A DNA stretch of 64,000 bases from a virus, in IMG/VR virus record IMGVR_UViG_3300020473_000020, positions 1 to 64,000 of that record, one strand, 5' to 3'. Below, piece by piece: positions 765-42,160 of this stretch (position 1 is its first letter; every line of letters begins with the position of its first letter). The position numbers and the translations under genes were made by a program. The notes beneath the pieces were generated by a model, which was given only the letters and a program-made list of their open reading frames with translations, was not told the DNA's origin and searched no databases.

Positions 765-2387
765 TTACAGCTGGCTTGCAATCTTAGCGCGGATCTCAGC
801 AAGTGTCGTTGTACGTAACAGCTTACCGTCTTCAAACACGACGCGAAGCAGTCCGCCTTGCTCTTGTTCTTCGGTGCAGTTATCAGTCATGACTAGCTCG
901 CCATTAACCTCGTCAACACGGATAAGCCCTTTAGCTGACTTCTTCTTTTTATCCGTTTTAGGGTCTTTGAAGATAGCCACTGATTCGCCTGCTTTGATAA
1001 CGTTAGTTGCTTTCACAGCTGAGCCGTGTGTATCACGTGTAACGTACTGGTAGCTGTAAGAACCGATACCTAGTACAACCTTAGAGCAGAAACCTTTATC
1101 CATCAGACGCTGTAAGATAGCACGCTGACGTTCTAGTGTGATAGCATCACCGTAGATTGCACCAATGTGCTCATCCAACATCTTGTAACCTTTATCGGTG
1201 ATAGTTCCGCCGAAAATATCCCACAGGCACTCGATAAGACCTTTTACTTCGCACTCCATAAGTACGGTTGACTGTTCTGCATTGCCAAGACCTTCTACCG
1301 TGTAGAGCTTGCCGTCGAAGCTAAATGCTTCTGAGCCAGCTTTAACAGCACGCATGTGTGCCATCGCAAAGGTCAGCTCGGTGCTCATGAAGATCTCAGG
1401 GTGTAATAGGTAACCCGTTAGGATCTTAACTGGACAGCCTGAGTCTGGTCGGATAATGACCGCGCCGTCACGAGCTAGAATTTCTTCTTTAAGCTCTGGT
1501 AAGTATTCAGTTACTAACTTCCAGAAATCCCATGTGTCGCTAACGACTGACAAGATGCCCGTAGGCGACTGTTCACACATTAGGTAGCGGAAGAACTCAA
1601 TCTCACCCTCAAGCAGCCATGAACAGGTCACTGAGTGCTCAGTTGCATCAACCGACGCACCGACTAACTCGGTCTCAACATTCGCACCGTAGAACTTCTC
1701 AGCAAATAGAACTGCTGGGATCGTGTCGGTACCGACTAGGCCACTTGCTAAGTGTCCAAAACCTGATGCCGCTGCTGCCGCGCGACCAAACATGCCACGG
1801 AATGAAAAGTCATGCCCTTGGAATGGTACAAAATCGAGTGGCACTCCCGTCTTCTCAGCATACTCGCGGAACACCTTAAAATAGGCCGTTGCAGTGGTTG
1901 CGCTTGTCTGAATACCCCAGTTCTCACAGCTCATAACCGTCTCGATCATGTTGGTAAGCCAAGCAAAATCGGGGTGAGTGTTAACAACGGTGATAGGCGG
2001 TACTTGGTAAGGCACTAACGTACCCTCTTCCAATGCTTTGATGCGAAGTGGTAGGTAGCCAAGGTCATGCAAATTACGTAGGTACTCAACGTTAACGCTG
2101 TAGCCCAGCATTGAATCAAGTATGCGTTTGTGTGCGCGGACAGCGGCTTCTTTCGGAGCTTTAAAGAATAGGCTCCACTCGTCCATCAAGTAGTCCATAA
2201 CGAAGTATTGAAGACCCACAAAAGCAACATGTGCATTGTCAGGTACGTTACTTAGCTTACCATTACGCGATGTATAGTTCGCATAAACGCTGGTTACCTG
2301 CGGGTGGTATGCTCTTAAATGAAATTCCTTATACACATCTTTAGCTAATGAGCTGGTTTGTACGGTTGTTGATGTAGTTAAATTCAT
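765..2387 (-). CDS. nadV: Nicotinamide phosphoribosyltransferase-like (NAMPT/NadV)
   Basis: 540 aa, slightly longer than human NAMPT. The catalytic landmarks are present: HDFSFRG (about 192-198), GTDT (about 219-222), SVDATEHS with the catalytic His at about 251, IIRPDSG (about 311-317), a YGDA segment, and a C-terminal IFKDP...KSAKG block. The known family reaction is nicotinamide + PRPP to NMN. It lies 84 bp downstream of prs on the same strand, so prs would supply its phosphoribosyl donor. In the recently described phage NARP1 pathway, homologues of this pair act instead on ADP-ribose (ADPR-PP + nicotinamide to NAD+). Sequence reading alone cannot separate the two, but no NMN adenylyltransferase is seen in this window. 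Annotation as a NAMPT-fold enzyme is secure; the substrate is not. Confidence 0.93.
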   Translation of the reverse strand: MNLTTSTTVQTSSLAKDVYKEFHLRAYHPQVTSVYANYTSRNGKLSNVPDNAHVAFVGLQYFVMDYLMDEWSLFFKAPKEAAVRAHKRILDSMLGYSVNVEYLRNLHDLGYLPLRIKALEEGTLVPYQVPPITVVNTHPDFAWLTNMIETVMSCENWGIQTSATTATAYFKVFREYAEKTGVPLDFVPFQGHDFSFRGMFGRAAAAASGFGHLASGLVGTDTIPAVLFAEKFYGANVETELVGASVDATEHSVTCSWLLEGEIEFFRYLMCEQSPTGILSVVSDTWDFWKLVTEYLPELKEEILARDGAVIIRPDSGCPVKILTGYLLHPEIFMSTELTFAMAHMRAVKAGSEAFSFDGKLYTVEGLGNAEQSTVLMECEVKGLIECLWDIFGGTITDKGYKMLDEHIGAIYGDAITLERQRAILQRLMDKGFCSKVVLGIGSYSYQYVTRDTHGSAVKATNVIKAGESVAIFKDPKTDKKKKSAKGLIRVDEVNGELVMTDNCTEEQEQGGLLRVVFEDGKLLRTTTLAEIRAKIASQL

Positions 2388-2471
2388 TGTCTTTGTCTCT
2401 TTTGTTCAAGTCTTTTTAACTGACTTCTTAATAAGCCAGCACTGGTTTTTGTTCTGTGGACTACGTGAGGC

Positions 2472-3347
2472 TTACAGCTCAACCACAGTCAGGCTTACGT
2501 CTGCACCATTGAGTGCTTGTAACTGTTCACGTGTCTTGAATGAATCAGTTGTGTAGATAGTATCAATTAAGCCCGCGAATACTGACATACCTTGAGAGAA
2601 AATGCCATGGGTAACGTACAAAGAAATCGACTGTGCACCACGGTTTTTCGCAACTTTTGCAAGTTCAAGATACGTACGGCCACCGTCACACAAGTCATCT
2701 ACGATAATGAGGTCTTTACCAGCCACATCGCCATTGATTTCAGTTCGGATTATGTCACCTGTTGCCATATCGCGAAGTTTCTCGCCTTGTACAACGCTTG
2801 TGCAGCCCATGTACTTTGCTAACGTGTGCGTTTTCTTCGCAGCACCTGCATCGGGAGCAACCAATGTGTAGTCGTTTGATTTCAACTTAGCTGTTAGCGT
2901 TGTACAACGGTTGATTACGTTAACCTGTGAAAGATTCACCACGTTATTCAGTAGGGCAGTGGTTACATCGCTGTGCGCATCGGCAATCACAACTTTCGTA
3001 AAGTTCATTGAGTTAATAAGGTCGGCCATGACGCGTACGCTAAGCGCTTCACCTTCGTTACATACACGGTCTTGGCGAGCGTATGGGAAATATAGAGCTT
3101 TTAGCTCTAAGTTTAATGTCCCACCAAAGATGTTGCGAAGGGCATTAACCGCTAGTAATAGTTTCATCACAGCCGATGAGTTAGTTAATCGCGTCTCGAT
3201 TCGTGCGCTGAACTGTGTCTCTGTGTCTAGTTCGTTTAGCGCGTCATCTACGATGCGGATGTTTTCTTCACCACCGTTAAAAGTGATTGTCTCAACTTGT
3301 AATTCGCGTTCTTCTTGGCATCCGCTTTGTTTAATAAAAATTCTCAT
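2472..3347 (-). CDS. prs: Ribose-phosphate pyrophosphokinase family (Prs or ADP-ribose kinase Adps)
   Basis: 291 aa, shorter than the roughly 315 aa of cellular PRPP synthetases. It has the ATP-site YARQDR (about 89-94), the metal-site DAHS (about 123-126) and a PRPP-loop VDDLCDGGRT (216-225). Cellular enzymes usually have D-x-I/V-D-T-G-G-T there, so DGGRT is a divergent loop. It is the first gene of the prs-nadV operon and is read from a sigma70-like promoter overlapping an NrtR-like operator. The likely role is making the activated ribose donor for NadV; the alternative is pyrophosphorylation of ADP-ribose as in NARP1. Confidence 0.9.
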   Translation of the reverse strand: MRIFIKQSGCQEERELQVETITFNGGEENIRIVDDALNELDTETQFSARIETRLTNSSAVMKLLLAVNALRNIFGGTLNLELKALYFPYARQDRVCNEGEALSVRVMADLINSMNFTKVVIADAHSDVTTALLNNVVNLSQVNVINRCTTLTAKLKSNDYTLVAPDAGAAKKTHTLAKYMGCTSVVQGEKLRDMATGDIIRTEINGDVAGKDLIIVDDLCDGGRTYLELAKVAKNRGAQSISLYVTHGIFSQGMSVFAGLIDTIYTTDSFKTREQLQALNGADVSLTVVEL

Positions 3348-3367
3348 TGTATCGTTTTCCGTCTTGT

Positions 3368-3386
3368 AAGTATCAGCTTGGTACTT
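3368..3386. promoter_or_regulatory. Putative NrtR operator O1
   Basis: 19-bp inverted repeat AAGTATCA-GCT-TGGTACTT, extended to GTA...TAC over 3366-3388. It begins immediately downstream of the prs -10 element, so a bound protein would cover the start site. It is one of three copies in this gap. Confidence 0.75.
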
Positions 3387-3415
3387 ACTTTAATGCAACA
3401 TTCGGATGCCGTCAA
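3387..3415 (-). promoter_or_regulatory. prs-nadV promoter
   Basis: Minus-strand TTGACG (3410-3415), 17-bp spacer, TAAAGT (3387-3392). The -10 abuts operator O1. Confidence 0.7.
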
Positions 3416-3431
3416 CCCCTTTTATAATAAA

Positions 3432-3450
3432 AAGTTTCAGGCTGGTACTT
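3432..3450. promoter_or_regulatory. Putative NrtR operator O2
   Basis: AAGTTTCA-GGC-TGGTACTT, same inverted-repeat family as O1. Its centre is 64 bp from O1 and 21 bp from O3, close to whole numbers of helical turns. Confidence 0.7.
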
Positions 3451-3452
3451 TA

Positions 3453-3471
3453 AAGTATCAGGTTGGTACTT
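3453..3471. promoter_or_regulatory. Putative NrtR operator O3
   Basis: AAGTATCA-GGT-TGGTACTT. It ends 3 bp before the -35 of the divergent regulator gene, consistent with autoregulation. Confidence 0.7.
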
Positions 3472-3474
3472 GTA

Positions 3475-3501
3475 TTGACTTTAGAATCAATTAACTATAA
3501 G
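3475..3501 (+). promoter_or_regulatory. Promoter of the Nudix regulator
   Basis: TTGACT (3475-3480), 15-bp spacer, TATAAG (3496-3501). The spacing is short, so the exact -10 is uncertain. Confidence 0.5.
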
Positions 3502-3542
3502 CTCTCACTATAATGAAAATTACAACAAGTAAAGAAGCCATC

Positions 3543-4256
3543 ATGACTGAACAAGAATATTTAGCGTCCTATAATGCAAAGGACTTCGACTCCCCACTAG
3601 TAACTGTCGACAGCGTACTGTTTACTATCCGCGAGGGTGACTTACATGTGCTTCTTGTAAAGCGCGCTAACCATCCTTTCATCAATCACTGGGGCTTAGC
3701 AGGTGGCTTTATTGATCTAGAGGCCGATGCCGAACTAGCTGATTGCGCTATACGTAAGCTTACTGAAAAGACAGGTATTGCGCCGCCATACTTAAAGCAG
3801 CTGTCTACCCGTGGTAATGCAAAGCGTGACCCGCGTGGTTACTCAGTCAGCACTGGCTTCTATGCACTCATCGACCACCAAGAGTGCACAGCATTAAATG
3901 CTGACGTCTCTGATGCGCAGTGGTTTAAGTTCACTGAGCTGCCTGAGCAGTTAGCCTTTGACCACCGTGAGATTATTGAATATGCCTACACGCGTCTGAC
4001 GAACGACGCCCGTTTCCGCTTAGTCGTTGCCCACGCATTGCCTAAGCAGTTTACCTTGGCACAGTTCCAAGCAGCTCACGAAGTGATTTTAGGTCAGCCG
4101 CTCTCTAAAGCATCATTCCGCCGCCGAATTGAACGCGCACAAGTACTGGAAAGCACAGGGGAGTTTTGCAAGAAGCACGCAAGACCCGCTGAATTGTTCC
4201 GCGTTAAACCCGAGCTAGATAATTATGAGTTCGACCAATCTATCGCGATGAACTAA
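3543..4256 (+). CDS. nrtR: NrtR-like Nudix transcriptional regulator of NAD metabolism
   Basis: 237 aa from the ATG at 3543. An ATG at 3513 lies almost at the promoter, and NrtR proteins typically start near the EYL..Y segment. Residues 20-140 form a Nudix domain; residues about 150-237 resemble the NrtR winged-helix domain. The Nudix box is degenerate: the REUxEE core reads RKLTEK, so two of three metal-binding Glu positions are Lys, which predicts a ligand sensor rather than a hydrolase. Known NrtR proteins bind ADP-ribose or NAD metabolites and repress NAD genes. It is divergent from prs-nadV with three inverted repeats between, so it most likely controls that operon and itself. Confidence 0.88.
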   Translation: MTEQEYLASYNAKDFDSPLVTVDSVLFTIREGDLHVLLVKRANHPFINHWGLAGGFIDLEADAELADCAIRKLTEKTGIAPPYLKQLSTRGNAKRDPRGYSVSTGFYALIDHQECTALNADVSDAQWFKFTELPEQLAFDHREIIEYAYTRLTNDARFRLVVAHALPKQFTLAQFQAAHEVILGQPLSKASFRRRIERAQVLESTGEFCKKHARPAELFRVKPELDNYEFDQSIAMN

Positions 4257-14367: not shown

Positions 14368-14445
14368 TGGTCGGCCGCGAAGGATTTGAACCTTCGACCA
14401 ATTGGTTAAAAGCCAACTGCTCTAACCTGACTGAGCTAGCGGCCG
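14368..14445 (-). tRNA. tRNA-Lys(UUU)
   Basis: 78 nt with encoded CCA. Acceptor CGGCCGC/GCGGCCG, anticodon loop CTTTTAA, T-arm GAAGGTTCAAATCCTTC. Confidence 0.9.
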
Positions 14446-14459
14446 ACATAAAAAGAGGT

Positions 14460-14534
14460 TGGACTAGGCGAGGATTTGAACCTCGCGTCCCGACCCTTCA
14501 ACCGAGGGCGGCTCTCACACTGAGCTACTAGTCC
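14460..14534 (-). tRNA. tRNA of uncertain isotype
   Basis: 75 nt without encoded CCA. Acceptor GGACTAG/CTAGTCC and T-loop TTCAAAT are good, but the best anticodon loop is CGGTTGA, which lacks U33, and the D-loop is short. The anticodon would be GUU (Asn) if read normally. It may be unusual or decaying. Confidence 0.6.
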
Positions 14535-14540
14535 ACAAAG

Positions 14541-14616
14541 TGGCGGATCCTACTGGGCTTGAACCAGTGACCTCTGGATTAACAGTCCATTGCTCTACCA
14601 ACTGAGCTAAGGATCC
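14541..14616 (-). tRNA. tRNA-Asn(GUU), copy 1
   Basis: 76 nt with encoded CCA. Acceptor GGATCCT/AGGATCC, anticodon loop CTGTTAA. Confidence 0.9.
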
Positions 14617-14626
14617 TAAATAAGTT

Positions 14627-14703
14627 TGGGGTGGCTCACGGGACTCGAACCCGTGACCGACGCGATCACAACGCGTAGCTCTACCAACTGAGCTAGAGCC
14701 ACC
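14627..14703 (-). tRNA. tRNA-His(GUG)
   Basis: 77 nt with G-1 paired to C73 (the histidine identity pair), anticodon loop TTGTGAT and encoded CCA. Confidence 0.92.
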
Positions 14704-14716
14704 ATACCAAAGAAAG

Positions 14717-14792
14717 TGGCGGATCCTACTGGACTTGAACCAGTGGCCTGATCGTTAACAGCGAACTGCTCTACCAACTGAGCTAAGGATCC
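14717..14792 (-). tRNA. tRNA-Asn(GUU), copy 2
   Basis: 76 nt, same acceptor and T-arm as copy 1 but a different anticodon stem (GTTCG/CGATC). Anticodon loop CTGTTAA. Probably a duplication of copy 1. Confidence 0.88.
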
Positions 14793-14797
14793 TAAAT

Positions 14798-14874
14798 TGG
14801 TCGGTGTTGTAGGATTTGAACCTACGACCCCTTCGCCCCAAACGAAGTGCGCTACCAAACTGCGCTAAACACCG
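14798..14874 (-). tRNA. tRNA-Pro(UGG)
   Basis: 77 nt with encoded CCA; anticodon stem CTTCG/CGAAG with loop TTTGGGG. Confidence 0.92.
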
Positions 14875-14883
14875 ATTTTAAAT

Positions 14884-14958
14884 TGGTAGGGGCGGCAAGA
14901 CTCGAACTTGCGAATGCTGGAATCAAAATCCAGTGCCTTACCACTTGGCTACGCCCCT
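14884..14958 (-). tRNA. tRNA-Gln(UUG)
   Basis: 75 nt with encoded CCA; anticodon stem CTGGA/TCCAG with loop TTTTGAT. Confidence 0.92.
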
Positions 14959-17218: not shown

Positions 17219-17250
17219 AGTACTGCCTCGTTTCTCGGTCTCATTTACCG

Positions 17251-17283
17251 AAAAAGCCCCGCACCATTACTGGTAGCAGGGCT
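17251..17283 (-). terminator. Intrinsic terminator ending the yjf-like unit
   Basis: Minus strand AGCCCTGC, loop, GCGGGGCTTTTT, 20 bp after the gene ending at 17303. Confidence 0.8.
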
Positions 17284-17302
17284 GACTGTACTCGGATGAG
17301 CG

Positions 17303-17488
17303 TCAGGTCTTTTTGATGGTATCGACCTTGCGCTTAACTTTGTAGATTGCGACTGCAATGGCCACTACGATGACCAATACAACCGCTTTAAAAATACCAC
17401 TGATGATCGGGAGCAAGAAGTACAGGGCAATCAGCCCTAAAATAATTGCAACCACTACTTTTGGGTTTTTCTTTAAAAATCCAAACAT
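17303..17488 (-). CDS. Small membrane protein
   Basis: 61 aa; two adjoining hydrophobic segments (about 11-30 and 33-50) and a basic C-terminus. Last gene of the long yjf-like transcription unit. Function unknown. Confidence 0.65.
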   Translation of the reverse strand: MFGFLKKNPKVVVAIILGLIALYFLLPIISGIFKAVVLVIVVAIAVAIYKVKRKVDTIKKT

Positions 17489-17503
17489 TGTAATCTCGTT
17501 GTC

Positions 17504-17665
17504 CTAGTTTAGGTTTAACGGCATTTCAGCTTTTACGCCGCGAATACCAATAAGCAGGGCATTAATTGCCCAGCCTATTGATAGAATCACCGCGACAGAA
17601 AAGAAGGTGCAGCCGATAAACACGCCAAAACCACTTGTTACGTATTGGAGTAATTCAAGTACCAT
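17504..17665 (-). CDS. Small membrane protein
   Basis: 53 aa, ATG at 17665. One or two hydrophobic segments (about 12-40). Lies in order between 17303-17488 and 17675-17869 with 9-15-nt gaps. Function unknown. Confidence 0.55.
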   Translation of the reverse strand: MVLELLQYVTSGFGVFIGCTFFSVAVILSIGWAINALLIGIRGVKAEMPLNLN

Positions 17666-17674
17666 GTGGGTGCC

Positions 17675-17869
17675 TCAGTAAATAACCTTTTTAAACACGT
17701 CGCCGTTTGGGAGTACTAGCAAGTCGTCAGCGCCGTTTACAACACGGGCGGCTGATGGAGCCGATGGCTGCATCACATAGCCATGTTTCATCAGGGTCGC
17801 CAGCTTGTAGTGGGCTTTATTGCTAAAGCCCTTTGTGGATTCTTCGTAGTACTCGTCACCGTTCTTCAT
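17675..17869 (-). CDS. Hypothetical protein
   Basis: 64 aa, soluble, not recognised. The C-terminal half (LLVLPNGDVFKKV) is beta-like. Spacing of 8 nt to its neighbour supports it. Confidence 0.5.
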   Translation of the reverse strand: MKNGDEYYEESTKGFSNKAHYKLATLMKHGYVMQPSAPSAARVVNGADDLLVLPNGDVFKKVIY

Positions 17870-17877
17870 TGGGAATG

Positions 17878-18012
17878 TTACGCGTTGTCTGCTGGTGGAA
17901 GTGTTGAGTCGTGCACAATACGCGCGGCGCGCTTACTCACAAGTCCAACAAAATACATGAGTGGATGCGCAAGTACATTGTGTACAAACCAGTTCTTATA
18001 CAGCTTCTTCAT
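17878..18012 (-). CDS. Small basic protein
   Basis: 44 aa, ATG at 18012. Has an HNVLAHPLMYFVGLV amphipathic or membrane segment. Fits the 6-nt gap after the yjfC-like gene. Unrecognised. Confidence 0.5.
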   Translation of the reverse strand: MKKLYKNWFVHNVLAHPLMYFVGLVSKRAARIVHDSTLPPADNA

Positions 18013-18018
18013 CGCGAG

Positions 18019-19194
18019 CTACCCTATGATCACGTGTGGCACAAAGCGTGACGTATCTTTTGTCACAGCGGTATCATCTTCACGGATAGTAAGGCCACAG
18101 GCTTTATCGCCAATGACCCACGAACCGATTAGGGTGTAGTCGTCACCGAATTTAGGCAATGAGTAGAACTTTTGAGCAACCATAGTGTGGTTACCGTAGT
18201 CACCCTCAACGGCTTCGACAACCTCGCCTGAGTCCAAGATCGTGATATTTGCGCCCTCACGGCTGTGTACAGGCTTAGTCACAAAGTGGTCACCTAAATC
18301 CTCTTTCTCTTCGCCCACGAAGTACGCTGGCAGAAGGTTAGGGTGGTTCGGGTAACGCTCCCACAACAACGGTAGGATCCCTTTGTTTAATAGCACTTTC
18401 CATGGCGGCTCGAAGAAGTGCATGTCTACGAGGCTCAGGTATTTACCGTAAGTATCTTCGAATGCGTGTTCCCATGGGTACAGCATGAAAAGGTTACGGA
18501 TAATGTTGTGCTCTAAGTCCGTGAAGCATGTCTCAGGCTCGAAGGCTAGGCCAATATCGTCAACGTAGATAAACGCTGTCTGTAGCCCCGCTTGGTGGGC
18601 ACAATCACGTAAGTAGTCAACGGTGGCCTTATCTTCTGATGAGCCTTTACAGCTTGCAAAGTACATGACGGTCTCTTTGTCTTCCATGTCTTCATAGATG
18701 GCATAGAAACGGTCAATCAACTTCTCTTGGATGCTATTGAATTGGTCAGTTGACGCAGGCAATTTGCCCGCGTCCACCTGCTCTTGAAGCCAGACCCACT
18801 GGAAGTAGGCCGCTTCGTAGATAGAGGTTGGTGTCTGACCATTCATTTCAAGTAGCTTAGGCGGGTTTTTGCCATCATACGCAAAGTCCATACGACCATA
18901 TAGCGTCTTGTCTTGCTTTTTCCAGCTGCGTTTAACCCACGTACGTAGATTGTGTGGAACTTCAAGCTTATCAAGTAGCTCGTCGCTCTGTACCACTTCA
19001 TCAACCAGTTTAAGGAACATTTGATTGATCTCGTTCGTAGCAGCTTCGAGGTGTTCTTCGATCTGCTTTAACGTGAACTGGTAGTAGCGGCTCTCATCCC
19101 AATAGACTTCACCATCAATTGTATGGAAGTTAAAGCCCAGCTTTTTAGCCAATTCGTCTAAATGTGGTCGTACGGTTGAATCTCTGCGTATCAT
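18019..19194 (-). CDS. yjfC: YjfC/YgiC-like ATP-grasp (glutathionylspermidine synthase family)
   Basis: 391 aa, full length. YGRMDFAYDG..PPKLLEMNGQ (about 98-118), PTSIYEAAYFQW (about 121-133), KPVHSREGANI and a C-terminal SRFVPHVI are typical of the YgiC/YjfC branch of the ATP-grasp family (PF03738). Members ligate an amine to a carboxyl with ATP; whether this branch makes glutathionylspermidine is not established. It is the last of six genes that match the enterobacterial yjfIJKLMC order. Confidence 0.9.
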   Translation of the reverse strand: MIRRDSTVRPHLDELAKKLGFNFHTIDGEVYWDESRYYQFTLKQIEEHLEAATNEINQMFLKLVDEVVQSDELLDKLEVPHNLRTWVKRSWKKQDKTLYGRMDFAYDGKNPPKLLEMNGQTPTSIYEAAYFQWVWLQEQVDAGKLPASTDQFNSIQEKLIDRFYAIYEDMEDKETVMYFASCKGSSEDKATVDYLRDCAHQAGLQTAFIYVDDIGLAFEPETCFTDLEHNIIRNLFMLYPWEHAFEDTYGKYLSLVDMHFFEPPWKVLLNKGILPLLWERYPNHPNLLPAYFVGEEKEDLGDHFVTKPVHSREGANITILDSGEVVEAVEGDYGNHTMVAQKFYSLPKFGDDYTLIGSWVIGDKACGLTIREDDTAVTKDTSRFVPHVIIG

Positions 19195-19200
19195 GTCTAA

Positions 19201-19743
19201 TTAGCCCCCGAAGCCACCGCGTGCTGAGAAGCCACCGCGTGATAATGTAACCGCCTTTGATGACGCTGTTGATGGTGCACTTGCGCGCACTGTCGAACGG
19301 CTCATTGTCACTGGGCGGCCTACGTTGTGAACTTTACCGATTGAAGAACCTGCACCCGTGATGAACGTGTAGCGGTCTTTCTTCGTTGTGTAAAGAGGAC
19401 GGTAGGTGTATGACGACGAACGACGACCGTCGCTGTCAAGCATGTTTGCTACCATGAAGCCTGCCATGAATGGCACAAAGCTGTTACTGCTGCTACCTGA
19501 GCCAGATTGGCACTGGCCAACACCGAAGTCGGTTTCGCAGGCTGCTTTGTTTGTGTACTTCACTTCTTTAAGCGCTTCTTGTTCAGCCTTCTTATATGCG
19601 GCCTCACACGTTGAATCAGCGACTTTATCAGACGCCTTACACTGTTCTAACGATTTGAAGGTTAGAACCTCTTCTTGTGATCCGCAGCCAGCTAGTGCTG
19701 AGGTACCCATTAGGGCAAGTGTTAGCTGTAGAGAACGTTTCAT
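19201..19743 (-). CDS. yjfM: YjfM/YgiB-like DUF1190 lipoprotein
   Basis: 180 aa. Lipobox LAGC at about 17-20 after a basic start; then the DUF1190 Cys pattern (C35, C46, C69, C78 area with FGVGQC) and a Ser/Arg/Gly tail ending in RGGFG, as in YgiB/YjfM. Predicted to be lipidated at the envelope. 6 nt before yjfC. Confidence 0.88.
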   Translation of the reverse strand: MKRSLQLTLALMGTSALAGCGSQEEVLTFKSLEQCKASDKVADSTCEAAYKKAEQEALKEVKYTNKAACETDFGVGQCQSGSGSSSNSFVPFMAGFMVANMLDSDGRRSSSYTYRPLYTTKKDRYTFITGAGSSIGKVHNVGRPVTMSRSTVRASAPSTASSKAVTLSRGGFSARGGFGG

Positions 19744-19757
19744 AGCGTTCTACCCCC

Positions 19758-20171
19758 TTACCCGTTCATGCTTGATGCGTTGATCAAACCAATGATTACT
19801 GAGATACCACCAAGGAAGATACCCGCTTGTACTTCTTGGTTCTTGATGCGTTGTACTAGGTCTGGCAGAGGTAAGCGGATCGCTGTGAACACTGCAAGTT
19901 GTACAAGACAGGCTACGATACCCCAAACTACGAAGTCTGCTAAAGCAACTGAGTTGTTCATAGCTGACATAAGTGGAATGGTGAAACCTGCGATAGCACC
20001 TACGTACGCGATTGATGCTGCTGTGTTATGGTTTTTCTTGATCTCTGTCCACTCGCAGTATGGCGTTACGCGTGAGTATACGAACGAGAATACAACGATC
20101 ATGGCAATTGCCACAGAGAAGTAAAGTGCGAAGTGTGGTAAGCCCGCTAGGCTCTTTTGAATTAATTCCAT
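19758..20171 (-). CDS. yjfL: YjfL-like DUF350 membrane protein
   Basis: 137 aa with four hydrophobic segments, including one with AYVGAIAGFTIPL and a final one with GIFLGGISVIIGLINA, as in DUF350. Inner-membrane protein of unknown activity. Third from the end of the yjf-like cluster. Confidence 0.85.
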   Translation of the reverse strand: MELIQKSLAGLPHFALYFSVAIAMIVVFSFVYSRVTPYCEWTEIKKNHNTAASIAYVGAIAGFTIPLMSAMNNSVALADFVVWGIVACLVQLAVFTAIRLPLPDLVQRIKNQEVQAGIFLGGISVIIGLINASSMNG

Positions 20172-20206
20172 TATCTTAGTCTCAATTAGTTTTTAATGGT
20201 TGTGAT

Positions 20207-20902
20207 TTAAAGCTGCTCGGCCAGTTTTGACACGCGCAGGTCGGTTGAATTAACGTGTTTGCCCAATGCGATACTGAATAGCACTTCATTGCTGCCATGG
20301 TCTTCAAGCGCTGTTAATAGCAGCTCGTGGGTACCATCAGACAACTCACGGCTAAATAGCATCATGTGGTTGTACACGTTGTAGTTTTTACCCTCGGAAT
20401 TATCAATGTCCTCGTCAACTTCGGCTAAGGTAGCCAATCCGTTGTGGTCATCTTCAAATACACGATTGTAAACTTGGCCGCCGTATTCATACGTCGTTGC
20501 ACGCATCTTTAACGTCGCTTCTTCAATCGCAGCTTCGCTGTGACAAGGATGTGACGCATCGTATGAGAACAATGTAAGCTCTTCCACGTTATCAACGTGA
20601 GGATTGCCCGTATAAATAACTTGAATAAGAACGTCTGCACTTGCGTAGAAGCGTTCCATTACACGACCGAAGCCTAGTTCAGCTTTTGATACAGCTTGGA
20701 TTGATAGGTGCTCAGGGCAGTTATCAATGTTCAGCTCATCTTTAAGCCACAGGATGTCCGTTGTATTAACGTCAACCTGCTTGCCCAATGCCAAGCCAAA
20801 GAGAGGCGCTGGGACTTCATTTCGCGGCTGTGGTTTATCATCAAAGGACGCCATGGCGGCGTCCTTCTTGATCCCAAGCCAAAGTAGGATCTTTTTCCAC
20901 AT
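20207..20902 (-). CDS. yjfK: YjfK-like DUF2491 protein
   Basis: 231 aa. The pattern PLFGLALGKQVD, FYASADVLIQV, LTLFSYDASHPC and NHMMLFSREL fits DUF2491 (YjfK). Soluble, function unknown. Its start codon overlaps the yjfJ stop by 1 base. Confidence 0.85.
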   Translation of the reverse strand: MWKKILLWLGIKKDAAMASFDDKPQPRNEVPAPLFGLALGKQVDVNTTDILWLKDELNIDNCPEHLSIQAVSKAELGFGRVMERFYASADVLIQVIYTGNPHVDNVEELTLFSYDASHPCHSEAAIEEATLKMRATTYEYGGQVYNRVFEDDHNGLATLAEVDEDIDNSEGKNYNVYNHMMLFSRELSDGTHELLLTALEDHGSNEVLFSIALGKHVNSTDLRVSKLAEQL

Positions 20903-21567
20903 TACGATAGCTCAGCTAGTAAGTCTTTTTGGCTCTTACCACCAGTGCGGTCAAGCTCTGCGAATTGCGCGTCAAGGTCACGTGCTGAGTCTAGCTCTTT
21001 AGACGCATCAAGCTTGTCTTGGCGCTTCTGCTGGATCTCTTTAGCACGACTTAGACTTGAAGCTGCATTAGACGTGTTGTTGTGTACAGCGTGAGAAGCT
21101 GACGCTAGGCTCTCGCGTACATCAAGGATTGCGTCTTGTGCTTTAAGCTCTTCAAGCTCAATGCCACGCGCTTCGATTTGCGCAGTTAGATTGTCGTAGT
21201 CGCGGTCTAGCGTAGCGATAGACTCAGATACAGAATCGAAGATTTTTTGCTGTGCTTCAAGCTGCGTCTGTGCTTTTTGCATTTCGCCCAGTGCTTTCAT
21301 TGCAAGCTCTTCGTTACCTGAATCACGTGCTTGGATTGCGCGTGCTTTGAACTTTGCAGCTGACTCAGTGAACTCAGCTACTTTGCGCTCTGCTTCGCGA
21401 CGTTTAGCACCGAACTCGATACGAGTGCCATCTGTCTTAGCAAGTGCTGCACGGTCATCGCGTAGTGCTTGCTCTGTTTGCGCAATAATCGTTTCTTGGT
21501 CTAACGCGTCTTCTAAATCGTGTTTAGCTTTACGGCCAAGTGTGAAAAGTTTTTTAAGTAATGACAT
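20902..21567 (-). CDS. yjfJ: PspA/IM30-family protein (YjfJ-like)
   Basis: 221 aa, almost wholly helical and coiled coil, starting with an amphipathic helix (MSLLKKLFTLGRKAKHDLED) as in PspA/Vipp1. The family binds stressed inner membrane and assembles into ESCRT-III-like polymers. No PspF-type activator is seen. Confidence 0.9.
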   Translation of the reverse strand: MSLLKKLFTLGRKAKHDLEDALDQETIIAQTEQALRDDRAALAKTDGTRIEFGAKRREAERKVAEFTESAAKFKARAIQARDSGNEELAMKALGEMQKAQTQLEAQQKIFDSVSESIATLDRDYDNLTAQIEARGIELEELKAQDAILDVRESLASASHAVHNNTSNAASSLSRAKEIQQKRQDKLDASKELDSARDLDAQFAELDRTGGKSQKDLLAELS

Positions 21568-21581
21568 ATCAATCCTACCTC

Positions 21582-21989
21582 TTATGCGGAAAGTTCGTCT
21601 TGGATAAGCTCAGCTACATTGAGCGCATTAACAGCAAGTAAGTTGACTTCTAGTGCTACGTTCGACAGCTTTGATGTTGACGAAAGCGCACCGAATACAA
21701 CGTAGTTGTCTTCACCATTGATGGTTTCAATTGCGATTGAGCTTAAAGGGAGTGGCTTCTGTAAGCGCATGAACGCATCGTTAGCTGCATTCACGTCGGC
21801 TACGTTTGCCGTTGGACAAATCACAATCTCAGCTGTGATCTGCTTATCGCCAACAGTGGCAATAACTGATAAGTCACCGTATTGAGGTAAGTTGAATGAA
21901 ATTACACTGCCATGGATGACAACGTCACTACCGATTGTTTCAAGTAGCTCAGCAACTTCTTTTACGGACAACACATTATTCTCAGACAT
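21582..21989 (-). CDS. yjfI: YjfI-like DUF2170 protein
   Basis: 135 aa. LPLSSIAIETINGEDNYVVF and FGALSSTSKLSNVALEVN match DUF2170 (YjfI). Small soluble protein of unknown function. First gene of the cluster; AAGGA precedes the ATG. Confidence 0.85.
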   Translation of the reverse strand: MSENNVLSVKEVAELLETIGSDVVIHGSVISFNLPQYGDLSVIATVGDKQITAEIVICPTANVADVNAANDAFMRLQKPLPLSSIAIETINGEDNYVVFGALSSTSKLSNVALEVNLLAVNALNVAELIQDELSA

Positions 21990-23688: not shown

Positions 23689-24162
23689 TTACCTCAGCTC
23701 TCGGATTATTTTGACGATGTCGTAGACTGTTTCGGCCTGCTCAGCTGCCTGTTTAGTGATTTCGATATTAAAATGCTCTTCTAGATGGAAAAGTGCTTCG
23801 ATTCTATCAAGAGAGTCCATCCCTAATTGAGTGAAGTTTGTCGTCCCTACGATTAGGTGTGGCTTTAGCTGCGCGTGCTCGCTAAGAATGCTGACGACCT
23901 CGTTGTGAAGCATGCAGGTAGGCGACTTTACAGGTACGATAGGCTTGGCACGTGAACTTACGTAGGCATCGATCAGGCTGTCTGCATAGTTATTCTTAGC
24001 GTCGGCGCTCTGGTAGATCGTGAAAGCACCTAGCTCCCCTTTCTTGTGATAGATATAGCCTGCGCCATCTGTGTTGCTTTCTAAAATTAGTGTCTCTGCC
24101 AATTGCGGTACGACTTGGATCCGCCCATCAACAATGCCACCCATAAATAAAACGTTGTGCAT
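23689..24162 (-). CDS. Protein with C-terminal acyl-carrier-protein domain
   Basis: 157 aa. Residues about 85-157 have the ACP pattern: F.QLGMDSLDRIEALFHLEE with Ser117 in the DSL phosphopantetheine site, then EEHFNIEI and ETVYDIVKII. The N-terminal 80 residues (beta-rich) are not recognised. A carrier domain would need a host 4'-phosphopantetheinyl transferase; its acyl or aminoacyl cargo is unknown and no synthase lies beside it. Confidence 0.8.
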   Translation of the reverse strand: MHNVLFMGGIVDGRIQVVPQLAETLILESNTDGAGYIYHKKGELGAFTIYQSADAKNNYADSLIDAYVSSRAKPIVPVKSPTCMLHNEVVSILSEHAQLKPHLIVGTTNFTQLGMDSLDRIEALFHLEEHFNIEITKQAAEQAETVYDIVKIIRELR

Positions 24163-27724: not shown

Positions 27725-27934
27725 ATGCAGAAAGATAATCCTCCTGTAGACCGTCGAACGCGCATACCTATTTGCCCTAAGTGTGATGCTGAAATCACAG
27801 GCAAAGGACATGGCTACGGTCAGCAATCATACGTTTGCTCGAACTGTAATAGTTGGGGCGCATGGTCAGACCGTAAAACGATACGCAATCCAGCAAACCC
27901 TAAGAAGAGGGCAGCTAAGCGGGGGAGTGTATGA
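27725..27934 (+). CDS. Small zinc-ribbon protein
   Basis: 69 aa with CPKC and CSNC pairs 17 residues apart and a basic tail. The stop overlaps the start of the channel gene (ATGA), so the two are coupled. Confidence 0.7.
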   Translation: MQKDNPPVDRRTRIPICPKCDAEITGKGHGYGQQSYVCSNCNSWGAWSDRKTIRNPANPKKRAAKRGSV

Positions 27935-29034
27935 ACCTGCTAGCGATACTTAAACGCCGACGCTATAAGCGCCGTGTCGGTCTAAAGTCTATTAAAGACT
28001 CCCTTAGAAATGCGGTATTACAGCTCAGTGTGATGATGTCCATACACTCGATGCTTATTATGCTGATCGAGAAAAAGAGCGTGTTTGAATCAATCTGGTT
28101 CACGATGGTCTCTGTAACGACGGTTGGTTACGGTGGTTTTATACCGCAAACGACGGCGGGTAAAGTGACCACAATGGTACTCGTGTTCTCTGTCGGCATC
28201 TGGCTCGTCGCACACACAGTGAGCTTAATCGTTGAATACGCAACGGAACGAACAAAACAAAAAAGAATAGGTAACTGGAACTGGAAAATGAAAGAAGCAA
28301 TCGTACTGATGGGTGCCCCAAGTCGCGGCGCAGAGGTCTTCCTTAAAAACTTGTTAGAACAAATCCGCGCAACTGAACTACTGGCGCATAAAGATGTCGT
28401 GATAGTCTCAACCAACTTTCCTGATGGCCTACCAGAATCGGTGGCCGACCTTGGCGCTGTCCTTTTGAACTACAACCGTGATGATAAGGCGCTGTATGAA
28501 AAAGACGTCATAAAGAACGCCACAATGTTCTATTTCTTGGCCTCCGATGAAGTAAACAACGTGTCGAACTCAGTTACGTTTAACGCGCTTAGCTTGCTTG
28601 TACACAGTGAGGCTAAGCCTTGGCAAGTCATAGCTGAGACAACCAAAGAGTGTGACCGAGAACGCTTCTTAGGTATGGGCGCTACTGCAATTATACGTCC
28701 TATCCGTGCTTACCCTGAAATGGCCGTACGTGCGATGGTTAACGAACAAAATGCAGCCTTCATCGAAAACATGTTTAGTTCGAAAGGCGATGAGCCACAA
28801 GTCTTTCCCCTTCGCTACGTTGGCACATGGAGCAAGCTGGCTTTGCGTTGCATCGACAATGACCTAGGCAGCCCAGTTGGTTATATCAATGCCGACGACA
28901 AGCTCATAACGAACCCCAAAGGCTCCGATCATATCTATGCAAAGGGTGTTCAGCTGCTCATTAAAGAGGGCGATAAGCGCGCTCTTAAAATCCTTGCGAG
29001 CTGGGCTTACACTGACGAAGACGATGGTTGTTAA
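27931..29034 (+). CDS. Two-TM potassium channel with RCK/TrkA-like domain
   Basis: 367 aa. Residues about 28-48 form TM1, IWFTMVSVTTVGYGG (about 55-69) the pore helix and selectivity filter, and about 78-102 TM2. A cytosolic Rossmann-like region follows (AIVLMGAPSRGAEV, VVIVSTNFPD), matching an RCK/TrkA-N domain as in Kch-type channels, then a TrkA-C-like tail. The intact TVGYG predicts K+ selectivity. The first glycine motif of the RCK domain is GAPSRG, not GxGxxG, so nucleotide binding is uncertain. It would alter the host membrane potential or K+ balance. Confidence 0.87.
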   Translation: MNLLAILKRRRYKRRVGLKSIKDSLRNAVLQLSVMMSIHSMLIMLIEKKSVFESIWFTMVSVTTVGYGGFIPQTTAGKVTTMVLVFSVGIWLVAHTVSLIVEYATERTKQKRIGNWNWKMKEAIVLMGAPSRGAEVFLKNLLEQIRATELLAHKDVVIVSTNFPDGLPESVADLGAVLLNYNRDDKALYEKDVIKNATMFYFLASDEVNNVSNSVTFNALSLLVHSEAKPWQVIAETTKECDRERFLGMGATAIIRPIRAYPEMAVRAMVNEQNAAFIENMFSSKGDEPQVFPLRYVGTWSKLALRCIDNDLGSPVGYINADDKLITNPKGSDHIYAKGVQLLIKEGDKRALKILASWAYTDEDDGC

Positions 29035-40273: not shown

Positions 40274-42160
40274 TTATTTCTTAACTTCTAGCTGCCACAC
40301 TTGGCGTTTAACGCCCCATACTCGGTCGGCACCCACTTCTTTAAGGCGTGAATCGTGTAGCGTTGTATTCGCATTGAATGCTGGATCTATTAATGAAGCT
40401 CGCGCTACGAGTTCTTTACGTGGTAGACGGTTGCCATACTTACATGGTTTCATTAGAAACCACCCCTGACAGTCAATTTCTTTTTGATACTCAAACCCAG
40501 CCTCACCGTATGGAGTAGGATCATCGAAGGATGGATCTATCTCAACCGTGAACAATTTAGTGCCCCTTACGCGTGCGGCTGCTTCGGAGAGTAGACGCTT
40601 AAACCCTTTGGGAACTTGGTACCCGTTAATTACAGAGTACCTAAGTGCAGCCTTACCTACGGCGTCACCCCGTCTACGAGGGCGTTGCGCAACTTGAAGA
40701 ACGGCAGCTGCTTGGCCTTGGTATTTAAGGACGTAGCTAGTAACTACACCAGTCAGAGTGCCGTCGCGGTGATATAGCTCTAAGTCGTCACCGAACTCAG
40801 CTCCCGTCACAATCTCGCATTCATCAGCATCAATGACAGTGCCATGACCACAAGCTTCCATTATTGCCTGTTTAATGGCTGTAGGGCGGTTATAAAGCTC
40901 GTCTTCCCACACATAAATAAGTCGATAGCCTTGCTGGTTGGTAGCTTCTAACTTTGACTGATGGTAGTCTTTATCTTTCCCGCCTGCGTAGGCACTGTGC
41001 CAATAAATGCCGTTGTACTCAATTGCTAGCTTTAAGCTAGGGATCACGATGTCAAGCTCTCGGCCGCTAAGTAGCTCCCGATCCCCATGCTCGATATGTG
41101 TCCCGTCTGGGCAGGCCATCTTGACTACATCTAATATCTCACGCTCGCCTTGGCTAACTTCTTTAGGGAAGCAGCTAGGGCATCGTGGTTTACTCCCACT
41201 GATAGACCCATCATTCTCTAACCCACCCATAAATTCAGTACCACAGGCAAGACATTCCCAAGGGTAGCGGTGTGGCATTCCAGATTCGCGGTCAGCCATC
41301 ACACCGAAGTACTCGTCTTCTGCAAAAAGTGGTTTTATATCACCTACACGGTCAGTTTTATGAAGTTGTGCGTAGGCATGTTTACGCTTACCATTGCCTG
41401 CCTTATGCGCAAATTCTTGCACGCCCATAGGATTCTCACAGCCATACTTTCTAAGGTTTGTTACCTTAACCTTTTCTAAGGTCTGTTTGCTCGCGAAGGC
41501 ACTTGTTGATGCTGTCCCATACTTTGCTTTATTTGTGGCACGATGTTTAGTCCGAATAGCTTCCGAGTGGATTGGCGAAGTGACCCCATGGTTTTTTTGA
41601 AGCGTAGCTTGCATCTTATCACGAACCTCCTTTGACTTGGCTGGTACGTCGACACCGCGTCGCTCAATATTTGTATCTCGGCGCTGCTGTATAACTTCTG
41701 GGTCAGAAGACCCACACTTGATGTCGCAGTATGTTCCGTAGCCTGCCTTAGTCGCTTTAGAGTCCGTCATGCGGAAGCGCTTCTTAGGCTTGAGCTGCTT
41801 ACCGCAGGTCTTGCAGTTCGGTATTGCGGACAGATCATTGTAAAAAAGGTAATAGCGTTCTACCAGCTGAGCATCATCGGGTAGGAATGACGTTGCGGCT
41901 ACTAAGTCGTCCTCGACACTGGGTTTAAAAGCAATCAACGAGTTCATGCGTGATGAAAAGTCGGCTACAGGTATGTCAGTGATATGTGACAAGCCCGCGT
42001 TGATTAGCTCTGTCCACGGAGCCTTTGCGCGCTGGCTAGGTCGCTGGTTACGGTAGGCTGGTATAAGTTTTACAATCTGTTCTGAAAGCTGTAGGTACTT
42101 CTGCTTTATGTCACACATATCATTCGTCTCTGGCATTTGATGGAGCCAGTCTATGTGCAC
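40274..42160 (-). CDS. Vsr-fold homing endonuclease (I-Bth0305I-like)
   Basis: Up to 628 aa. It has an N-terminal helical region, CKTCG zinc residues, four spaced motifs of the type TN..KYG..(N)P (about 150-255, DNA-binding modules), a zinc ribbon CLACG...CPSC, and a Vsr/EDxHD-type nuclease core with ELDIVIPSLKLAIEYNGIYW, YHQSKLEATNQQGYRLI and YVWEDE. Free-standing homing endonucleases of this type cut conserved phage genes. It lies directly downstream of the capsid gene, whose 3' region has partial copies in the gap. Start unclear: GTG 42160, ATG 42136 or ATG 42118. Confidence 0.85.
   Translation of the reverse strand: MHIDWLHQMPETNDMCDIKQKYLQLSEQIVKLIPAYRNQRPSQRAKAPWTELINAGLSHITDIPVADFSSRMNSLIAFKPSVEDDLVAATSFLPDDAQLVERYYLFYNDLSAIPNCKTCGKQLKPKKRFRMTDSKATKAGYGTYCDIKCGSSDPEVIQQRRDTNIERRGVDVPAKSKEVRDKMQATLQKNHGVTSPIHSEAIRTKHRATNKAKYGTASTSAFASKQTLEKVKVTNLRKYGCENPMGVQEFAHKAGNGKRKHAYAQLHKTDRVGDIKPLFAEDEYFGVMADRESGMPHRYPWECLACGTEFMGGLENDGSISGSKPRCPSCFPKEVSQGEREILDVVKMACPDGTHIEHGDRELLSGRELDIVIPSLKLAIEYNGIYWHSAYAGGKDKDYHQSKLEATNQQGYRLIYVWEDELYNRPTAIKQAIMEACGHGTVIDADECEIVTGAEFGDDLELYHRDGTLTGVVTSYVLKYQGQAAAVLQVAQRPRRRGDAVGKAALRYSVINGYQVPKGFKRLLSEAAARVRGTKLFTVEIDPSFDDPTPYGEAGFEYQKEIDCQGWFLMKPCKYGNRLPRKELVARASLIDPAFNANTTLHDSRLKEVGADRVWGVKRQVWQLEVKK

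Follow-up and report, generated by a model that had tools for sequence, protein, structure and literature searches.

A complete PspA-containing yjfIJKLMC operon on a phage genome and a candidate substrate for its YjfC ligase

We analysed a window of 64,000 nucleotides (nt), the first 64,000 positions of virus record IMGVR_UViG_3300020473_000020 (138,059 bp), in which six intact and closely packed genes on the minus strand (18019-21989) follow the order yjfI-J-K-L-M-C known from E. coli. Within the collections searched, finding all of this operon in a phage appears to be a novelty, whereas phages commonly carry its terminal part as a module. The best explanation for the whole, to which we give an even chance, is that a complete gammaproteobacterial yjfIJKLMC operon was taken up by the phage as a block long ago and then kept, and that it maintains the membrane while YjfC modifies the lipoprotein YjfM.

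A complete yjf operon resident in a phage

The family assignments made for the six genes in the initial annotation were all confirmed by Pfam profiles, with nearly full-length matches above the curated cut-offs (Table 1), as were the conserved E. coli order and the full lengths of the genes. The gaps between consecutive genes, from yjfI to yjfC, are 14, -1, 35, 14 and 6 nt. The YjfI family profile matches PDB entry 8q8o, a DUF2170 protein, and that of YjfJ matches Vipp1/PspA structures, the PF04012 helical domain being present at full length (residues 3-220, 84 bits versus a cut-off of 33.9). YjfC matches the structures 7uk8 (YgiC) and 7uk6 (YjfC). An AlphaFold2 model of YjfK reached a predicted local distance difference test (pLDDT) value of 86; fold searches with YjfK gave no confident match.

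Table 1. Genes and features of the yjf unit in the window
Feature	Window positions	Strand	Evidence
yjfI, DUF2170 (CesT/Tir-like chaperone fold)	21582..21989	-	PF09938, E 2.8e-29
yjfJ, PspA/IM30 (bacterial ESCRT-III-like membrane protein)	20902..21567	-	PF04012, E 1.5e-23
yjfK, DUF2491, beta-rich	20207..20902	-	PF10679, E 7.2e-34
yjfL, DUF350 membrane protein	19758..20171	-	PF03994, E 3.3e-38
yjfM, DUF1190 lipoprotein, lipobox LAGC, C-terminal tail SRGGFSARGGFGG	19201..19743	-	PF06693, E 8.5e-30
yjfC, homologue of ATP-grasp peptide-spermidine ligase	18019..19194	-	PF03738 (GSP_synth), E 2.2e-142
small open reading frame (ORF), 44 aa, same unit	17878..18012	-	sequence reading, spacing
small ORF, 64 aa, same unit	17675..17869	-	spacing
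small membrane ORF, 53 aa, same unit	17504..17665	-	strongly hydrophobic, maximum KD19 2.2
small membrane ORF, 61 aa, same unit	17303..17488	-	strongly hydrophobic, maximum KD19 3.0
strong hairpin then U tract, probable terminator of the unit	17240..17300	-	fold -27 kcal/mol, z -5.3

Since a whole bacterial operon is unusual in a phage record, the segment might be taken for a host contaminant or an assembly chimera. However, it lies amid small unassigned genes and a cluster of tRNA genes, and the same contig encodes terminase, major capsid protein, head protease, DNA ligase, DNA polymerase, helicases, recombinase and ribonucleotide reductase. Rhizobium phage RHph_Y65 and its relatives (Kleczkowskaviridae) share 58% identity with the capsid protein and 45% with the terminase. 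The codon usage of the six yjf genes correlates with that of the phage's large genes at 0.926, as do random phage gene sets on average (mean 0.926), and the correlation with sampled bacterial operons is much lower. Bacterial relatives, moreover, do not exceed 53% identity for YjfC and about 30% for YjfJ and YjfK. The phage genes on the contig and the phage-like codon usage make contamination unlikely, and the host contamination that the initial annotation had named as a possible refutation gained no support; the operon is resident in the phage, and we consider a contaminant or chimera very improbable.

The YjfM tail and the YjfC ligase

YjfM of the window carries a signal peptide with a lipobox cysteine, a conserved cysteine, a GGF motif and a C-terminal Gly-Gly. 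The final residues of DUF1190 proteins are strikingly conserved. Gly-Gly closes 17 of 18 distinct bacterial DUF1190 proteins, 17 of 27 phage copies and all 8 copies of a lone set (DUF1190 phages lacking a listed full-length ligase), against 0.7, 1.6 and 0.2 respectively expected from composition (permutation means). E. coli YgiB also ends in GG, as do 5 of 6 further bacterial copies. Among the eight lone-set phages, DSS3_PM1 carries an adjacent annotation of a truncated gsp, and for most of the rest the hosts are enterobacteria, themselves a possible source of YgiC.

We then defined the phage tail as the motif [RKST][GSD]GF[GS] within the last 50 residues of a protein whose terminal residue is G, S or A. 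Although the motif was picked with the sequences in view and related loci do not count as independent, the contrast is large: of 71 distinct phage YjfC genes, 53 have a neighbour with this tail, which turns up three times among 2796 other ORFs, each time directly upstream of the YjfC match. The DUF1190 body profile is silent in 26 of the 53 tail-bearing neighbours (e.g., in Acinetobacter T4-like phages and Motura). At bacterial loci, a stricter version of the tail ending in GG was found in 24 of 26 YjfM proteins versus none of 2631 other ORFs.

Glutathionylspermidine synthetase, to which YjfC is related, couples spermidine to glutathione at its glycine end. Peptide-spermidine ligase activity is reported for YgiC and YjfC of E. 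coli (Pederick 2023, cited in PMC10948618). Given this activity and the action of the synthetase on a C-terminal glycine, the Gly-Gly end of a neighbouring protein is a natural candidate substrate, and the side-by-side position of ligase and Gly-Gly lipoprotein genes in many phages suggests that the enzyme acts on that tail. Nine ATP-grasp residues of GspSA (R316, D318, E330, N332, E392, K498, K533, R538 and R598) have identical equivalents in the window YjfC, their positions having been checked in the alignment. Judging from these sequence patterns, we propose, with confidence a little below even, that the C-terminal GGFG...Gly-Gly tail of YjfM would be the substrate of YjfC. We found no report of the physiological target of YgiC/YjfC; earlier proposals about the tail may nonetheless exist.

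Several observations weigh against this assignment. Residue 120 of the window YjfC (18835-18837), two residues after the N332 equivalent, is Gln, where 26 bacterial copies, 82 phage copies and GspSA all have Asp, so that activity or specificity may differ in the window enzyme. YjfC has no apparent export signal while the lipoprotein YjfM is exported, and consequently the modification would have to precede export. The terminal glycine is kept in most, not all, phage copies, and the tail could serve another purpose (e.g., partner binding).

Occurrence in other phages and origin of the operon

A YjfC homologue was found in 130 records of the phage collection and a DUF1190 protein in 60, both counts taking in a few bacterial contigs deposited there. 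A DUF1190 gene lies nearby in 39 of 85 viral YjfC loci and a DUF350 gene in 21, and the DUF1190-YjfC association, with or without DUF350, recurs in large phages, including T4-like ones. None of the 85 loci contains YjfI, YjfJ or YjfK. Scans of 50,697 phage records for these three proteins matched nothing except host contigs deposited there (a Salmonella contig), and alignment scans of IMG/VR found no relative; because each match is confirmed with a window protein, and these proteins are diverged, distant relatives may have escaped, and near relatives of the window's own record are possibly not covered. The initial annotation had regarded a whole operon of this kind as unexpected in a phage, which holds in that no other phage was found with I, J or K but not for the DUF1190-YjfC end, common in large phages. 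Achromobacter phage Motura (locus 2255-3949) has a homospermidine synthase gene, and its tail-bearing lipoprotein stands directly before YjfC, followed by DUF350.

This distribution, with YjfM-YjfC and often YjfL in dozens of unrelated phages and YjfI-J-K only here, would also fit a phage function confined to YjfM-YjfC(-YjfL), the first three genes being passengers of a block acquisition. We find this rather unlikely: none of the six genes is damaged, they remain closely packed, and their codon usage has adapted over a long residence, whereas phages usually lose unused genes.

A tree of 86 YjfC proteins, a comparison with bacteria and other phages of the kind that the initial annotation had recommended for each of the six, places the window copy inside a clade of bacterial yjf-operon and YgiC proteins with a Shimodaira-Hasegawa-like approximate likelihood-ratio test (SH-aLRT) support of 100. 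Its neighbours there are Enterobacteriaceae (SH-aLRT 93), and 64 other viral YjfC proteins fall outside this clade. In a tree of all six genes, the phage operon has a long branch and falls neither within the Enterobacteriaceae nor within the marine gammaproteobacterial groups, its exact position being unsure because of long-branch effects. With its best bacterial counterpart YjfC shares 53% identity, YjfL 47%, YjfM 40%, YjfI 37%, YjfK 30% and YjfJ 28%. No donor was found by searching 369 gammaproteobacterial genomes with YjfK, which gave at most 30% identity; the 7 matches were each located beside other yjf genes.

IMGVR_UViG_2885280279_000001 (127 kb, capsid 72% identical) was considered as a sister phage and rejected, as it aligns only over ~67-89 kb (~22 kb). 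Its genes matching the phage cluster close together and the two operon families searched are absent from it. Owing to this partial alignment and these absences, it cannot serve to define the ends of the insertion.

Comparison with known systems

The closest known system is the yjfIJKLMC operon of E. coli and relatives, which belongs to the phage-shock-protein (PSP) group and combines a CesT/Tir-PspA dyad with a glutathionylspermidine-synthase-like ligase (PMC11237479). The six families, their order, strand and tight spacing are shared, but the copy described here is located on a phage, shows best identities of 28-53% depending on the gene, and is extended by four small genes and a terminator. 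The yjf operons of Salmonella, Vibrio and many Alteromonadales carry an ion-channel gene between J and K, which is absent from the phage operon; apart from this gene, the annotated Salmonella yjf genes have the order and orientation seen in the phage. The channel gene is likewise missing from most E. coli, from Kosakonia and from some marine bacteria. An ion channel with a TVGYGG filter encoded elsewhere in the window (27931-29034, plus strand) was tried as the missing seventh yjf gene. It is 31% identical to the operon channel over 48 residues, with a profile match to positions 24-145, and as only the pore region is shared we do not call it an orthologue.

Phage glutathionylspermidine-synthase-like genes (phrog_6215), present in Acinetobacter and Aeromonas T4-like phages, Motura, vB_OspM_OC, Phosso and DSS3_VP1, share the YjfC homologue, commonly beside a GGFG...GG-tailed lipoprotein and sometimes DUF350 or a channel. 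Unlike the window, these phages are without YjfI, YjfJ and YjfK, and their YjfC proteins lie outside the bacterial yjf-operon clade. E. coli ygiB-ygiC likewise pairs a DUF1190 lipoprotein ending in GG with a nearby YjfC-type ligase, yet represents just the two-gene core of the six-gene set of the phage. The six-gene bacA-F operon of P. aeruginosa (PMC10948618) begins, like that of the phage, with DUF2170 followed by PspA, whereas the ligase/lipoprotein end was not found in the portion of that source consulted.

Downstream genes and surroundings

The four small genes downstream of yjfC, separated by gaps of 6-15 nt, had been put forward in the initial annotation as members of the same unit and possible new partners. 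Spacing and the probable terminator agree with a single transcription unit, and two of the four are hydrophobic; the 64-, 53- and 61-aa proteins, the three tested, matched no family and have no recognisable relatives, and a partner role is consequently a guess. Upstream of yjfI, no sigma-54-like site was detected at up to 2 mismatches, and a promoter search at the operon gave nothing above chance. The sequence ATTAAAAACTAA is repeated upstream of yjfI (22001) and yjfL (20186), a weak signal.

A gene with a PP-binding (acyl/peptidyl-carrier-protein) domain is located a short way upstream of the operon (23689-24162, minus strand). The tRNA cluster comprises 7 genes, three of them for Asn (14368-14958, minus strand). 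A large homing/HNH endonuclease-like gene (40274-42160, minus strand) adjoins the major capsid gene. The contig also encodes a ParA-like partition protein (contig positions 132554-133732), which suggests that the phage may persist outside a purely lytic cycle; its initial description as lytic is thus unproven.

Proposed role in the infected cell

PspA-type proteins remodel membranes. In the explanation we favour, the ESCRT-III-like YjfJ, guided by the chaperone-like YjfI, would assemble on the infected cell's inner membrane, which these two proteins, together with YjfK and the membrane protein YjfL, would keep sealed and energised. YjfC, acting in the cytoplasm, would attach spermidine, or a polyamine like it, at the C-terminal glycine of YjfM by way of the RGGFG...GG tail, either before this lipoprotein is exported or while it is, and the modified protein would thereby present a positively charged tail at the envelope. 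For bacteria, Ravi et al. 2024 (PMC11237479) propose that operons combining PspA, chaperone and polyamine genes couple the sensing of the envelope to membrane dynamics. We suggest tentatively that the benefit to the phage would be an infected cell whose inner membrane is kept working, with an envelope perhaps altered.

The operon might instead act mainly in superinfection exclusion or counter-defence, its lipoprotein and membrane proteins blocking the entry of rival DNA or offsetting a membrane-attacking defence. A lipoprotein plus membrane proteins within a phage accessory region would suit such a role, and the neighbouring genes for nicotinamide phosphoribosyltransferase (NAMPT, 765-2387) and a phosphoribosyl pyrophosphate (PRPP)-synthetase-like protein (2472-3347), at window 765-3347 on the minus strand, would fit the restoration of nicotinamide adenine dinucleotide (NAD) against host defence. 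On the other hand, no PADLOC match to a listed defence protein was obtained, and bacteria use these genes for their own purposes, for which a general role at the envelope has been proposed (PMC11237479). Blocking of a rival phage or of a defence was also raised in the initial annotation; we judge an operon devoted mainly to such functions to be rather unlikely.

Among the collections searched, this is the only phage found with a complete PspA-containing yjf operon, a membrane-maintenance set so far known from bacteria, and with it an ESCRT-III-like membrane system comes under the control of a phage. The link between tail and ligase is a more general and more testable result than the operon itself, as the tail offers a concrete and cheaply testable candidate for the substrate of the conserved YgiC/YjfC enzymes, in E. 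coli as well as in many phages. With somewhat less than even confidence, we propose that polyamine-tailed envelope lipoproteins are made by bacteria and by many large phages, and that this phage would have acquired the entire PspA-linked system as a means of controlling the membrane of the infected cell.

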